NCBI GenBank assembly: GCA_002713585.1
Contig: PATD01000015.1
Span: 8,432 to 44,525, forward strand
DNA from: Methanobacteriota archaeon
GTDB lineage: Archaea > Thermoplasmatota > Poseidoniia > Poseidoniales > Thalassarchaeaceae
Direction: 5' to 3'
Length of the DNA stretch: 36,094 nt
The position numbers and the translations under genes are program-made. The notes below the pieces were generated by a model. The model made no database searches, had not been told where the DNA came from, and was given only the letters and a program-made list of their open reading frames with translations. Position 1 is the first letter of the stretch. The number at the start of each line of letters is the position of its first letter. Shown one piece after another: positions 6,047-10,418 of the stretch.

Positions 6047-7150
6047 TCAGATACTCAAACCATATTCTGCTAGTTTTTCAGGTAGGTAGGTATCAGTGAC
6101 GAAATCAAGCCCATATTTTGCAAGTGCCTGCTGTTCAGCCTTCTGACCTTCATTGAGCATCATATTGATTTGATCCTGCCATTCAGAAGTTGCAAATCGT
6201 GGGTCAGTTAATTCAGCCTTCAATGCTTCAATGTCTTTCGGTGTGAGTTTGTCTGAAGGAAGGTCATATGCTAGGATATCGTCGGCAGTGATTCCAAGAT
6301 AAGTGGAACTAGGAGTTGCAAGATATTCTGAGATGTGCGCGGTTTTAATTGCACCATAAGCAATACTAGCAAAAATTCTGAATGACCAAGGATCACAGTC
6401 AGCAAAGACCATCACAGGTTTACCCCATGTTTCAGACATACGTTTGATCATTCTACGAGTTGATCTAGCAGGCTGCCCCTTTAGGTGGATTAATGCACAA
6501 CGAGCGGACTCATCGAACCCATTCTCAACTAGTCGATCGAACATACCACCGGTTTCGATAGCCATGATGAAATCGATGTCTTGATCAATGAGCCGAATTT
6601 TCTCAGGCTCGACATTGTAAGGCAGCCCATATCCGGAATCGCCAACATCATCCCTGCAATTGATACGCATCCAATCTCCACGACGATTACGTTCTTCGAT
6701 AGTTACGTTACCAATCATCCTAGCTCCATCTTCTTCTGGTCTGAGCTTGAAATCTTCTCGCATACAACGTGTGACAATTTCGAGGTCTTCGGCGATATTG
6801 TTACTTTCATTTTGAGTTCCAAATTTACCCAAACCCCATCCTTCTGAGATGTAGTACATCTCCCTTAGTGTCGATGATTTTGCAGTGTCAATCATTTCCT
6901 CTATGAAATCGATTACGTGTAGTGCACGTAGTAGTTGCCGGGCGGAACCAAGACTCGTCGCATCACGAATAGTCTGTTTTTTTCCGTATTTGTAAACACC
7001 CAATTTTTTGTTAAATTCTATATTCGTCTTTGAACGAACTGGCAAGGTCATGGTGGGAGGTTGCCCTTTCAGCATTTTGTCATGCATTTCAGCAGCAACT
7101 TGATTCAGACTCTCAATAACTTCCTCTCTGGACTTTGCTTCAGACATCAT
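6047..7150 (-). CDS. top6A: DNA topoisomerase VI subunit A
   Basis: 367 residues, the usual length for Topo VI-A/Spo11-family proteins. This subunit cuts both DNA strands through a tyrosine and, with subunit B, relaxes or decatenates DNA using ATP. The catalytic motif REMYYIS lies at ~97-102, with Tyr100 the likely nucleophile. The Toprim metal-binding residues are Glu199 (AIETGG) and Asp251/Asp253 (FADCDPW). The usual DxDPYG is DCDPWS here, a mild deviation next to the metal site. The start ATG overlaps the stop of subunit B in an ATGA arrangement, so the two are translationally coupled. An ATG at codon 2 gives an almost identical protein. Confidence 0.97.
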
Positions 7151-9399
7151 TCATCCCCCCATTCTCCAAGCCCACTCTGTCTCAGAGCATCAGATTGGGT
7201 TGCATCTAACAATTCCTTGCGATCTAGTGTTCCACTGTCATCAACATCATGTTGTGCAATCGCCTCTTCAGCATCTGAATGCTCTAAGCGTTCACCTATT
7301 GGCCCCATCATTGCTTTCTGAAGCTCATCAGCATCGAGATCACCCGAATTATCTACATCATGACCCATTGCATCGTCGAGGGCCATATTGCTCTCTTCAA
7401 GCGCTTTCTTTGTAGCTATCTCTTCTTCAGTACGTATTTGTTCAAGAATCCCCTCATCAATTTTTGATGCTCCGATGATATCTCCAGAACCTCGGAAGAA
7501 CACTTCAGTTGCATTCCAATCATTATGTTCTAAACCTTGAATTGAAAATTCAATATTTCCTGCTTCTCCTGGAGGGATCGTATCTAATTTCCAGCACCAA
7601 ATTCCCTTTACTTCACGTCGACCACCAAGTTCGTTCTCTACGAAAGTTGCAGTATCCGTTTCAGGATATTGGGCCAGGATCGAATAAGCACGGGGCCGAG
7701 CAGTATAGTTGTGAATTTTGATTCTACATCGGTGCACTTTGGCTTCTTTGTCCCATGTGACTTCATCTTCGCAAAATACAGCATTCATGATTCGAGTGAT
7801 GACTGGTGCAAGGTCAGGTTCATCTCGACCAAGTAGGCTTGACGCCTTCGTTGAAATTGCAGGCAATATTTCATTCACAAGCTCAAATTTCTCCTGAGCT
7901 TTTGCCTTTTGAGCACTCTTTTTCCGATGATTCTTCAGGTGCCGCCCCACTTCTTGGAGAGCGAGCCGAATCTCATTGTGCACCTCTTCATTGTCTGCAA
8001 CGGCTTCCTTAGCCTCTGAAGTGAATTGGACATTTGTACTTGCGAGATGGACGAGTATTGTTGCTGCACCTTTAGGCACACCCTTTCCTCCAGGTTGTTC
8101 TAATCCGTAGCCCTTCCAAGATACAGATTCAATCGCCTTTGTGAGCAAACATCCTCCTTGTTGATACATCAATGGAACACGATTTGCGAACCGCAATACA
8201 TCGACTGCACCATCAGCAGGAACGTCCTCTCGCCCAAAAATTAGGCCGACTTCGACTTGGAATGGATTCCCAAGAGATACATTTGGGGGGCGAGTTACAG
8301 TTGCTACAAAAGCGGAATCAACAGATTTTGACAATCCTTTCTTGATTAGAAGATCCTCTATCGGGGAGAGACAATCGGTTGGTGGAGCCATGAGTCGAAC
8401 TGTGTTGAATGCATTCAGAATCCTTTGAGCCTCTTCTGGTGATACCTCGTTTGGAGTGGTTGCAGGATCAACTTCTGCATGCGCCAAAGTCTCCTTCATT
8501 GCCCGCATCGGTACTCCTGAGAAGGTATGTCTTAGGAAGAGGCTCATGCGTCGTTCAGTTGAATCGCGCAGAAGCCGATTCAACGCACCGATTTCGAGAC
8601 CATGAGGGTGGGGTTTGATACTTCGAACTGGGCGAGGAAGACGATCAGTAACGCGTTCAGCAACAAATTCTTCGATGATTTCTCCATTATCATCAATTGC
8701 CCGATATCGAATTGTTGCATGTGGGTTAACAATCGATGTCATACGCAAATATTGTCCAACACTCTTGCGCCCCCGCTGAAATTTTGCTTTCATCGGGGCT
8801 TCCACTTTCAGTCCATGTTCAACAGGTATGCCATTGTAATCTAGGAAGTCATGAGTTCTCTCCCTATTCGAGACAAGTGCAGCGTTCTTCTTTGTGTCCA
8901 GCCCGATATCCATTTGCAGTGCAGTGGCTTCTTTGGTAATTTTCGATGTGACTCGTGTTGTCTTGCCTGTAGTTAACTGACTATACATCACTACACCAGT
9001 TATACCGATTCCTTGCTGACCCCTAGTCTGTCGAATAGTGTGAAACCTCGAACCAAAGAGGAGACTTCCGAATACTTTCTCGATGGATTTTGACGGTATC
9101 CCTGGTCCATTGTCTTGCGAGACCATGATGATTCGATCATTTTTCTTTGGAACCTTTCGTAGCTCGATTGCAATGTCTGGAAGGATTCGATGTTCTTCAC
9201 ATGCATCAAGCGAGTTGTCTACCGCTTCCTTGACTGCCGTAATGATGGATCGTTGTAGAGTATCATAACCTAGGAAATGCTTGTTCTTCTCAAAGAACTC
9301 ACTAATACTCGCTTGCTTCATTGTGCTAGTGGTGCGCTTTGCCAATGAGATACCCCCTGCTGCGGTCCTCCCACGGCCGAATGCCGTAGGGCCACTCAC
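7147..9399 (-). CDS. top6B: DNA topoisomerase VI subunit B with C-terminal EF-hand pair
   Basis: 750 residues from a GTG at 9399; ATG at 9321 (codon 27) is an alternative start just before the conserved core, and the extra N-terminus is Gly/Arg-rich. The GHKL ATPase is clear: catalytic Glu58 in KEAVDNSLDACEE, DNGPG at 96-100 and the GQQGIG lid motif at 128-133. An H2TH/transducer region follows, then an Ig-like C-terminal domain (HNYTARPRAYSI ... GNIEFSIQGLE). The last ~85 residues are not part of a standard subunit B: two canonical 12-residue EF-hand loops, DVDNSGDLDADE (681-692) and DVDDSGTLDRKE (718-729), joined by helices. It heads a minus-strand cluster and overlaps top6A by 4 bp. Calcium or magnesium control of the enzyme is inference. 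Confidence 0.97.
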   Translation of the reverse strand: MSGPTAFGRGRTAAGGISLAKRTTSTMKQASISEFFEKNKHFLGYDTLQRSIITAVKEAVDNSLDACEEHRILPDIAIELRKVPKKNDRIIMVSQDNGPGIPSKSIEKVFGSLLFGSRFHTIRQTRGQQGIGITGVVMYSQLTTGKTTRVTSKITKEATALQMDIGLDTKKNAALVSNRERTHDFLDYNGIPVEHGLKVEAPMKAKFQRGRKSVGQYLRMTSIVNPHATIRYRAIDDNGEIIEEFVAERVTDRLPRPVRSIKPHPHGLEIGALNRLLRDSTERRMSLFLRHTFSGVPMRAMKETLAHAEVDPATTPNEVSPEEAQRILNAFNTVRLMAPPTDCLSPIEDLLIKKGLSKSVDSAFVATVTRPPNVSLGNPFQVEVGLIFGREDVPADGAVDVLRFANRVPLMYQQGGCLLTKAIESVSWKGYGLEQPGGKGVPKGAATILVHLASTNVQFTSEAKEAVADNEEVHNEIRLALQEVGRHLKNHRKKSAQKAKAQEKFELVNEILPAISTKASSLLGRDEPDLAPVITRIMNAVFCEDEVTWDKEAKVHRCRIKIHNYTARPRAYSILAQYPETDTATFVENELGGRREVKGIWCWKLDTIPPGEAGNIEFSIQGLEHNDWNATEVFFRGSGDIIGASKIDEGILEQIRTEEEIATKKALEESNMALDDAMGHDVDNSGDLDADELQKAMMGPIGERLEHSDAEEAIAQHDVDDSGTLDRKELLDATQSDALRQSGLGEWGDE

Positions 9400-9477: not shown

Positions 9478-9503
9478 ATCATTGATATTGACCCAGCAAT
9501 CGC
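9478..9503 (+). repeat. 26-bp direct repeat, copy 1
   Basis: Matches 9854-9879 at 23 of 26 bases (differences at repeat positions 11, 16 and 19). It starts with ATCATTGATA and ends with CAATCGC. The inverted half-sites ATTGAT and AGCAAT inside it are imperfect. It lies upstream of the Cys-rich microprotein gene. Confidence 0.7.
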
Positions 9504-9655
9504 TAACTCAGCCAATAACCAAGAGACAGAGACAACTGATAGAGACCCTAGATTAACTTGTATGGATACTGAAACATGTCAATAATAGACACAACAGGGT
9601 CACAGTCACGAACAGATTGTTGATTGGTGGAAGATGTAAATTCTTCAAATTAGTT

Positions 9656-9675
9656 CAAAATAATAATTATTAATC
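9656..9675 (+). promoter_or_regulatory. Probable TATA element of the microprotein gene
   Basis: AT-rich AAAATAATAATTATTAAT lies roughly 20-35 bp before the ATG at 9695 in an otherwise mixed region. At usual archaeal TATA-to-start spacing, transcription would begin only a few bases before the ATG, giving a nearly leaderless mRNA. No Shine-Dalgarno-like sequence is seen. Confidence 0.45.
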
Positions 9676-9694
9676 GTCATATTGACATGACTTT

Positions 9695-9853
9695 ATGACA
9701 GAATATTCATGTCACCACTGCGGAAAAATCGGACCTTGGCTTTTCTGCATGTGCACTAGAGCAAACAGTCCTTGTTGCCCAGAACATGGATTCAGATGCA
9801 AACATAATTTTGAATGGGTTTGCCGAGATTGTGATGATAAATGCGGTTGCTGA
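9695..9853 (+). CDS. Cys-rich 52-residue microprotein, probable zinc binder
   Basis: ATG to TGA with no interruption, 52 residues beginning MTEYSCHHCGKIGPWLFCMC and ending DCDDKCGC. Eleven cysteines (6, 9, 18, 20, 27, 28, 35, 43, 46, 50, 52) and four histidines (7, 8, 31, 37) make up 29 percent of the protein. The pairs CHHC, CMC, CC, CRDC and CGC look like two or three zinc knuckles. Chance ORFs rarely have this regular spacing, which supports a real gene. An AT-rich promoter-like block precedes it and a small hairpin follows the stop. I do not recognise a family. Candidate roles are a zinc-ribbon partner, a metallothionein-like metal buffer or a small regulator. It is isolated, between the divergent top6B and convergent rlmH genes, and bracketed by a direct repeat. 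Confidence 0.7.
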   Translation: MTEYSCHHCGKIGPWLFCMCTRANSPCCPEHGFRCKHNFEWVCRDCDDKCGC

Positions 9854-9879
9854 ATCATTGATACTGACTCATCAATCGC
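9854..9879 (+). repeat. 26-bp direct repeat, copy 2
   Basis: 23 of 26 bases match 9478-9503. It begins at the base right after the microprotein stop codon and runs across the rlmH stop codon (9872-9874). Confidence 0.7.
9857..9876. terminator. Hairpin between convergent microprotein and rlmH genes
   Basis: ATTGAT and ATCAAT form a perfect 6-bp stem with an 8-nt loop, inside repeat copy 2. It lies exactly where the two convergent genes end, so it could help end or stabilise both transcripts. The stem is AT-rich and weak. Confidence 0.35.
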
Positions 9880-10309
9880 GATGGTAACTACTGCCACGCT
9901 CAATTTCAGAGGCACGGTAGAGTTGTTCCAGAAGTACAACTGCAGCCATCTCATAGGTCATAGTCAAGGGTCCAAGTCCTAGAGTATCGTGTGCGCCAGT
10001 GAATCCATCCATCCATCCATCAACCGGTCCAATCGCAAGATGAATAGTATCACTCCCACTTCTCCATTGATTCCATCGTTGAACAATATCCTTTGTTGAG
10101 ATTGACGGAGCATTCTCGTCAAGGAGGATCAAGACACCGTTTTTCGAATCCTTGAGTAGACGCTTCCGGTAATTGTCATGATTCATGCGTGATGGATGAC
10201 GAATGAGGCGTACTCCCTTCGACTCCAGTCGTTCGGCATACATATCGATGAGGTGTGAATAGGCTCGATCTCTTGCTTTCCCATGGATGTGGACCACAAT
10301 GCGCGCCAT
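9872..10309 (-). CDS. rlmH: RlmH-family 23S rRNA pseudouridine methyltransferase (SPOUT)
   Basis: 145 residues from ATG 10309; bacterial RlmH is about 155. In bacteria this SPOUT enzyme uses SAM to N3-methylate pseudouridine 1915 of helix 69 in 23S rRNA. The C-terminus carries the family signature: GLGPLTMTYEMAAVVLLEQLYRA followed by an ending SSYHRD, matching the usual LSPLTLPHEL...EQLYRA...PYHR. The SAM-loop segment is LAIGPVDGWMDG, with GP in place of the common GG. The open frame extends upstream to 10501, but the conserved fold begins at MARIVVHIHGKARD, so the later ATG is preferred. It diverges from the 10419 gene and converges on the microprotein gene. A tetranucleotide repeat lies within the SAM-loop codons. 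Confidence 0.88.
   Translation of the reverse strand: MARIVVHIHGKARDRAYSHLIDMYAERLESKGVRLIRHPSRMNHDNYRKRLLKDSKNGVLILLDENAPSISTKDIVQRWNQWRSGSDTIHLAIGPVDGWMDGFTGAHDTLGLGPLTMTYEMAAVVLLEQLYRASEIERGSSYHRD
10003..10021. repeat. Tetranucleotide repeat (ATCC x4.75) inside rlmH
   Basis: Four full ATCC units and three more bases in a row, encoding the DGWMDG part of the RlmH SAM-binding loop on the minus strand. A 4-base unit in coding sequence would frameshift on gain or loss of one unit. Confidence 0.85.
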
Positions 10310-10418
10310 GATTGATGTTGGTGGGCGCAGGGTATTTACTATCTCCAATGGCCCACTCAACTTTCCTTTAGTAGATATTAGTCGATGCTTGAAAGACCCC
10401 CACCTACTCTCCACATTC
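10310..10418. promoter_or_regulatory. Divergent promoter region rlmH / 10419 gene
   Basis: 109 bp between two divergent start codons. AT-rich segments GTATTTACTATC (about 10330, for rlmH on the minus strand) and TAGTAGATATTAG (about 10370, for the plus-strand gene) are plausible TATA elements; neither is a perfect consensus. Confidence 0.35.

Follow-up and report, generated by a model that had tools for sequence, protein, structure and literature searches.

The zinc-finger micro-proteins of Haloferax volcanii, among them HVO_2753, HVO_0758, and other C(P)XCG proteins, have been described (PMC11241148, PMC10716476). Deletion led to a phenotype for most of the members examined in that way (PMC10716476), and 5 of 14 produced proteins were zinc-free, a warning that a predicted zinc motif need not hold metal and that AlphaFold2 does not reveal its absence (PMC11241148). 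The stretch of DNA analysed in this study (the window, 36,094 nucleotides) contains a gene whose product is likewise archaeal, under about 70 residues in length, Cys-rich, and predicted to bind zinc, but which is, unlike the Haloferax genes, a mobile insertion.

A Cys-rich Microprotein Gene between top6B and rlmH

The 52 codons of the gene, which lies in the gap between top6B and rlmH, encode MTEYSCHHCGKIGPWLFCMCTRANSPCCPEHGFRCKHNFEWVCRDCDDKCGC, a product with 11 Cys and four His residues (21% Cys and 8% His) and with CxC, CC, and CGC motifs. The coordinates, residue counts, and intergenic location given for this ORF in an earlier note on the same DNA proved exact. A Cys fraction of 0.21 was reached by none of 8,399 ATG ORFs of 40–70 residues from dinucleotide-shuffled windows, the highest value being 0.146. 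No Rfam match was found in the window or at three loci. The adjacent topoisomerase VI subunit B ends in a C-terminal EF-hand pair at residues about 680–734 (EF-hand_6, 1.3e-6; EF-hand_1, 8.5e-6), a calcium-binding-type tail that is unexpected for this enzyme.

TABLE 1 Features of the window and genomic contexts of the copies in relatives
Feature	Position	Strand	Details
Topoisomerase VI subunit B (top6B), core gene, left flank	7147..9399	-	Topo-VIb_trans 8.6e-54
Direct repeat, top6B-side copy	9478..9503		26 bp, imperfect; 23/26 identical, spacing 376
Unique part of insert	9504..9853		absent from this site in sister genome G004 and in others of the genus
Decayed 3' end of membrane/surface-protein gene	9529..9655	+	79% nucleotide identity over 128 nt to G006:C100
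TATA-like box ATTATTAA	9666..9673	+	29 nt before ATG; putative leaderless-type archaeal promoter
Cys-rich microprotein gene	9695..9853	+	52 residues, ATG to TGA; single copy in its own genome
Direct repeat, rlmH-side copy	9854..9879		26 bp; starts right after the microprotein stop, overlaps last 8 nt of rlmH
RlmH-type SPOUT rRNA methyltransferase (rlmH), core gene, right flank	9872..10312	-	SPOUT_MTase 8.1e-22
G006 and G001 copies			beside CDO-like cupin and folD
G147, G150, G145, and G163 copies			upstream of ttuA
G033 copy			between rps3ae and RNA-binding protein gene
G285 copy			between radA and ZIP transporter gene
G147 and G145 second copies, G151 copy			beside DUF63 gene
G049 copy			between tRNA-Val and CARDB surface-protein gene
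G051 copy			at contig end

Distribution and Conservation of the Family

Clear homologues were first obtained from a search of close relatives and then from an alignment-based search over 319 genomes of the order, which placed the family at 14 sites in 12 genomes, with 13 of these sites in 11 Poseidoniales genomes other than that of the window. Both families of the order and four genera are represented. Most of the genomes are incomplete MAGs, in which absence is uncertain unless an empty site can be read. A second pass over the order with the 13-member alignment added nothing credible, and among 390 genomes sampled throughout the phylum Thermoplasmatota no credible member was found outside Poseidoniales. 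The weak matches in that sample (G221, G063, G515, and G455) either lay in other frames of unrelated genes or were short and due to chance, and a scan of genome contigs with the single protein matched nothing but part of a gammaproteobacterial contig, again by chance. None of the members has a convincing match in Pfam, NCBIfam, PHROGs, PADLOC, or PDB sequences. The family is previously unnamed and, as far as the 319 genomes of the order and 390 of the phylum reach, restricted to Poseidoniales.

All 14 copies are open frames of 47–70 residues. Three relatives end five codons early and are otherwise intact; their in-frame TAA was considered as a sign of gene breakage and rejected, these proteins simply ending at residue 47. 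In the alignment of 13 sequences, from which the G001 copy was omitted owing to undetermined bases, M1, C6, C9, L16, C18, C20, P26, C27, C28, P29, G32, E40, W41, V42, C43, and C46 are invariant. The eight Cys residues among them are spaced as CxxC / CxC / CC / WxCxxC. Differences between close pairs are mostly synonymous, with dN/dS values of 0.02–0.27, of which most are at or below 0.11 and the highest comes from one pair with few changes; the gene is thus under purifying selection. The earlier note had proposed such an analysis within Poseidoniales and had named loss of the Cys positions, or frameshifts or stops in relatives, as evidence against a gene; the Cys positions are conserved and the frames open. 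With its homologues, invariant Cys residues, and purifying selection, the ORF is a genuine protein gene, as the note had claimed.

C35, H37, C50, and C52 are jointly absent from the 47-residue type, probably through a single event in one clade. The gene for this type (L057, L058, and L059) and a neighbouring DUF63 membrane-protein gene are divergently oriented. The two genomes G147 and G145 carry it there together with the long type at ttuA, so that the types can coexist.

Promoter and Downstream Region

A TATA-like box at such a distance before the ATG is the expected appearance of a leaderless archaeal promoter. Across nine independent loci the best TATA-like octamer begins at −29 or −30 from the ATG in eight and at −22 in the ninth, its position being kept although the flanks of the loci are otherwise unrelated. 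The AT-rich upstream block described earlier is borne out, and the positioned box suggests leaderless transcription from the gene's own promoter. The downstream hairpin of the same description is borne out in part as a fold (−17.1 kcal/mol, z = −3.9) but is not clearly a terminator of the microprotein gene, because stem 1 overlaps the direct repeat and stem 2 falls within the terminal part of rlmH.

The Window Copy Is an Insertion

Between rlmH and top6B the sister genome G004 has a gap of about 97 nt, with no microprotein gene, as compared with about 476 nt in the window. The gap is similarly short in the other members of the genus that carry both genes on a single contig. The two genomes are otherwise close, with 99% identity in the N-terminal part of TopoVI-B and 95% in RlmH. 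The window gene is thus an insertion that is absent from the sister genome, a feature that had escaped the earlier note. The insert of ~376 bp comprises the microprotein gene, its TATA-like box, and the decayed 3' end of a surface-protein gene, and is bounded by an imperfect direct repeat of 26 bp (score 17, against a maximum of 11 in shuffles), of which G004 holds one copy. The flanking DNA of the window and G004 is 89–94% identical, and the three mismatches between the repeat copies are therefore compatible both with a duplication of that age and with recombination between two similar sites.

Relative to its intact homologue in G006, the ORF of which ends in ...DPRLTGMDSETYQYWAQQGYSHEQIVDWWKEANSSN, the surface-protein remnant is interrupted by two in-frame stops and lacks one nucleotide. 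The insert therefore carries a decayed fragment of another chromosomal place. The surface proteins of the genus (L079, 1503–2105 on the minus strand; also L081, L082, and L085) share a conserved tail, DPRLTGMDSETYQYWAQQGYSHEQIVDWW in G006, that stands after a transmembrane-like segment. DNA related to it is present in several genomes, and the tail perhaps serves as a signal for sorting or anchoring.

No inverted repeats surround the window insert and no ORF of transposase size lies within it. A transposable element of the IS/MITE type was rejected, given the lack of terminal inverted repeats and transposase and the single copy in its own genome. A search for a direct repeat shared by all insertions found none: the 26-bp imperfect repeat, a possible target-site duplication, is limited to the window copy and so points to no common mechanism of insertion.

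Other Slots and Probable Horizontal Exchange

Empty alleles could be read at the window site and at three slots of the relatives, namely folD, ttuA, and rps3ae. The corresponding genomes are G007 at the CDO-like cupin/folD slot, G146 and G152 before ttuA, and G287, G023, and G286 at the slot between rps3ae and the RNA-binding protein gene. For G006 and G001 as compared with G007, loss in G007 and gain in the others are equally likely.

The microproteins of G285 and G033 are 93% identical despite occupying different loci, as against 89% for RadA, 80% for S3Ae, and 54% for the RNA-binding protein, whereas between G285 and G051 RadA is 96% and the microproteins only 67% identical. The ttuA slot is shared by two divergent versions, with TtuA 87–93% and the microproteins 54–56% identical between the two groups. 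Since the identities of the gene contradict those of the core genes, horizontal exchange is the simplest account. The microprotein tree also interleaves the two archaeal families, with weak support from a small alignment. No recombinase was recognised beside the microprotein gene.

Before ttuA in genus g12 (L097, L122, and other loci) there is also a strongly conserved non-coding block, located between a small divergent gene and ttuA and containing a ATCCCCCTAAAGGGGGAT hairpin, a CGCGGA...TCCGCG pair, and CAATTGAAAAATT...CAATTG. The block has no Rfam match at E values up to 0.1 and is possibly a new RNA or regulatory element.

Predicted Fold and Metal Binding

The AlphaFold2 model of the protein (pLDDT 62, low confidence) consists of a β-hairpin followed by a short helix with a CxxC at its start, and a second model has a pLDDT of 43, also of low confidence. 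The top Foldseek matches are LIM, PHD, and RING zinc fingers, all weak and none below an E value of 0.1. The earlier note's suggestion of at least two zinc clusters and a compact fold agrees with the eight invariant Cys residues. Arranged in four close pairs, these residues are suited to two zinc ions, which they may bind in a small core of the treble-clef or cross-brace type. The joint absence of C35, H37, C50, and C52 from the 47-residue type suggests an optional third metal site. We regard a small zinc-stabilised binding module as the most likely nature of the protein.

Origin and Possible Function

The explanation that we favour, with about an even chance of being right, is that of a roaming solitary gene encoding a folded zinc microprotein that acts as an adaptor or regulator. 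The folded protein would be a small intracellular factor binding protein or nucleic acid, and a conditional benefit from such a role would explain its patchy spread. The window copy would have arrived as the ~376-bp insert together with the surface-protein gene fragment, probably by short-homology recombination or target duplication. A related reading, which we regard as possible while leaning against it, is that the promoter and ORF (about 230–380 bp) form a nomadic, recombinase-free single-gene cassette that moves between the intergenic slots of core genes and swaps divergent alleles within a slot, owing to a frequency-dependent benefit of the microprotein, for example, resistance to viruses or competitors.

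Were the protein instead a buffer of the metallothionein kind, it would mainly sequester zinc, copper, or cadmium with its 11 Cys and four His residues, in place of offering a folded surface for binding, and would spread as an accessory metal-tolerance gene. Its composition and its CxC, CC, and CGC motifs suit this, as do the accessory, horizontally moving distribution and the ZIP metal transporter adjoining the G285 copy. This neighbour is, however, one of seven contexts, the invariant non-ligand residues L16, P26, P29, G32, E40, W41, and V42 point to a fixed fold, the 47-residue type remains under purifying selection without four of the ligands, and there is no metallothionein match in PDB or Pfam; we consider the buffer unlikely. 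To a similar degree we doubt an origin in a virus or mobile element, by which an anti-defence or similar accessory gene (a moron or anti-restriction gene) was stranded in host chromosomes. The small size, patchy presence, different loci, and divergent alleles sharing a slot would all be expected of such a gene, and the insert contains a decayed foreign gene end, but no homologue was found in IMG/VR or in phage or plasmid collections, no PHROGs or PADLOC family includes it, the flanks are mostly core genes, and no integrase, transposase, or viral gene was recognised beside any copy.

A part in a neighbouring core pathway, such as that of an accessory zinc protein for tRNA thiolation by TtuA, is very improbable. 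In four g12 genomes the gene does immediately precede ttuA and shares its strand; three of these leave 5–25 nt before the ttuA ORF, and in the fourth the gene touches the longest possible ttuA frame. Yet the close relatives G146 and G152 possess ttuA without it, and elsewhere its neighbours are the unrelated rlmH/top6B, folD, radA, rps3ae, and DUF63. Scarcely any weight can be given to a chance ORF or assembly artefact. The ORF is short, lies in a gap, and is missing from the sister genome, but the chance reading is already refuted by conservation, with 14 homologous places in 12 independent genomes, invariant Cys residues, purifying selection, and a positioned TATA-like box, and shuffling never yields such a Cys content.

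The roaming microprotein gene adds a genuine unnamed family to Poseidoniales, among the most abundant archaea of the ocean, and offers a base-by-base view of how a gene of ~160 bp, together with its own promoter, enters gaps that separate core genes. If the swapping of alleles at fixed slots is general, it would provide a clean system for studying how the smallest genes spread among archaea that have not been cultured. The small size of the protein also puts synthesis, metal analysis, and NMR within reach.

Comparison with Known Systems

Bacterial metallothioneins (SmtA/BmtA) are similar to the microprotein in length and in Cys/His density. The latter gives no match to their profiles and differs in its conserved aromatic and hydrophobic positions and in the fewer ligands of some members. 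The eukaryotic-type cross-brace and treble-clef fingers of the PHD, LIM, and RING classes have four ligand pairs, as does the microprotein, and PHD fingers share with it a WxCxxC at the last ligand pair. The third ligand group is, by contrast, CC-x2-H in the microprotein and H-x2-C in the cross-brace fingers, and the microprotein is free-standing at 47–70 residues, with no significant sequence or fold match to these classes. No PHD, LIM, or RING profile scored above its curated cut-off, the best being PHD-1st_NSD with an E value of 0.043 in one of 13 members.

Minimal mobile elements, a term from Neisseria genomics, denote alternative gene content between core genes that is exchanged without a recombinase of its own. 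In these, unrelated genes occupy one slot, whereas here one homologous gene occupies several unrelated slots.

Two C(P)XCG motifs define the Haloferax micro-proteins. In the window protein there is a single CxxCG (CHHCG, C6–G10), and most of its relatives have none, carrying CxC, CC, and WxCxxC pairs instead, so that the family falls outside the two-motif definition, while all 14 members lie within the length of under about 70 residues. The microprotein perhaps works like its haloarchaeal counterparts. It is best seen as a variant within a known kind, an archaeal Cys-rich microprotein whose gene roams, with its own promoter.
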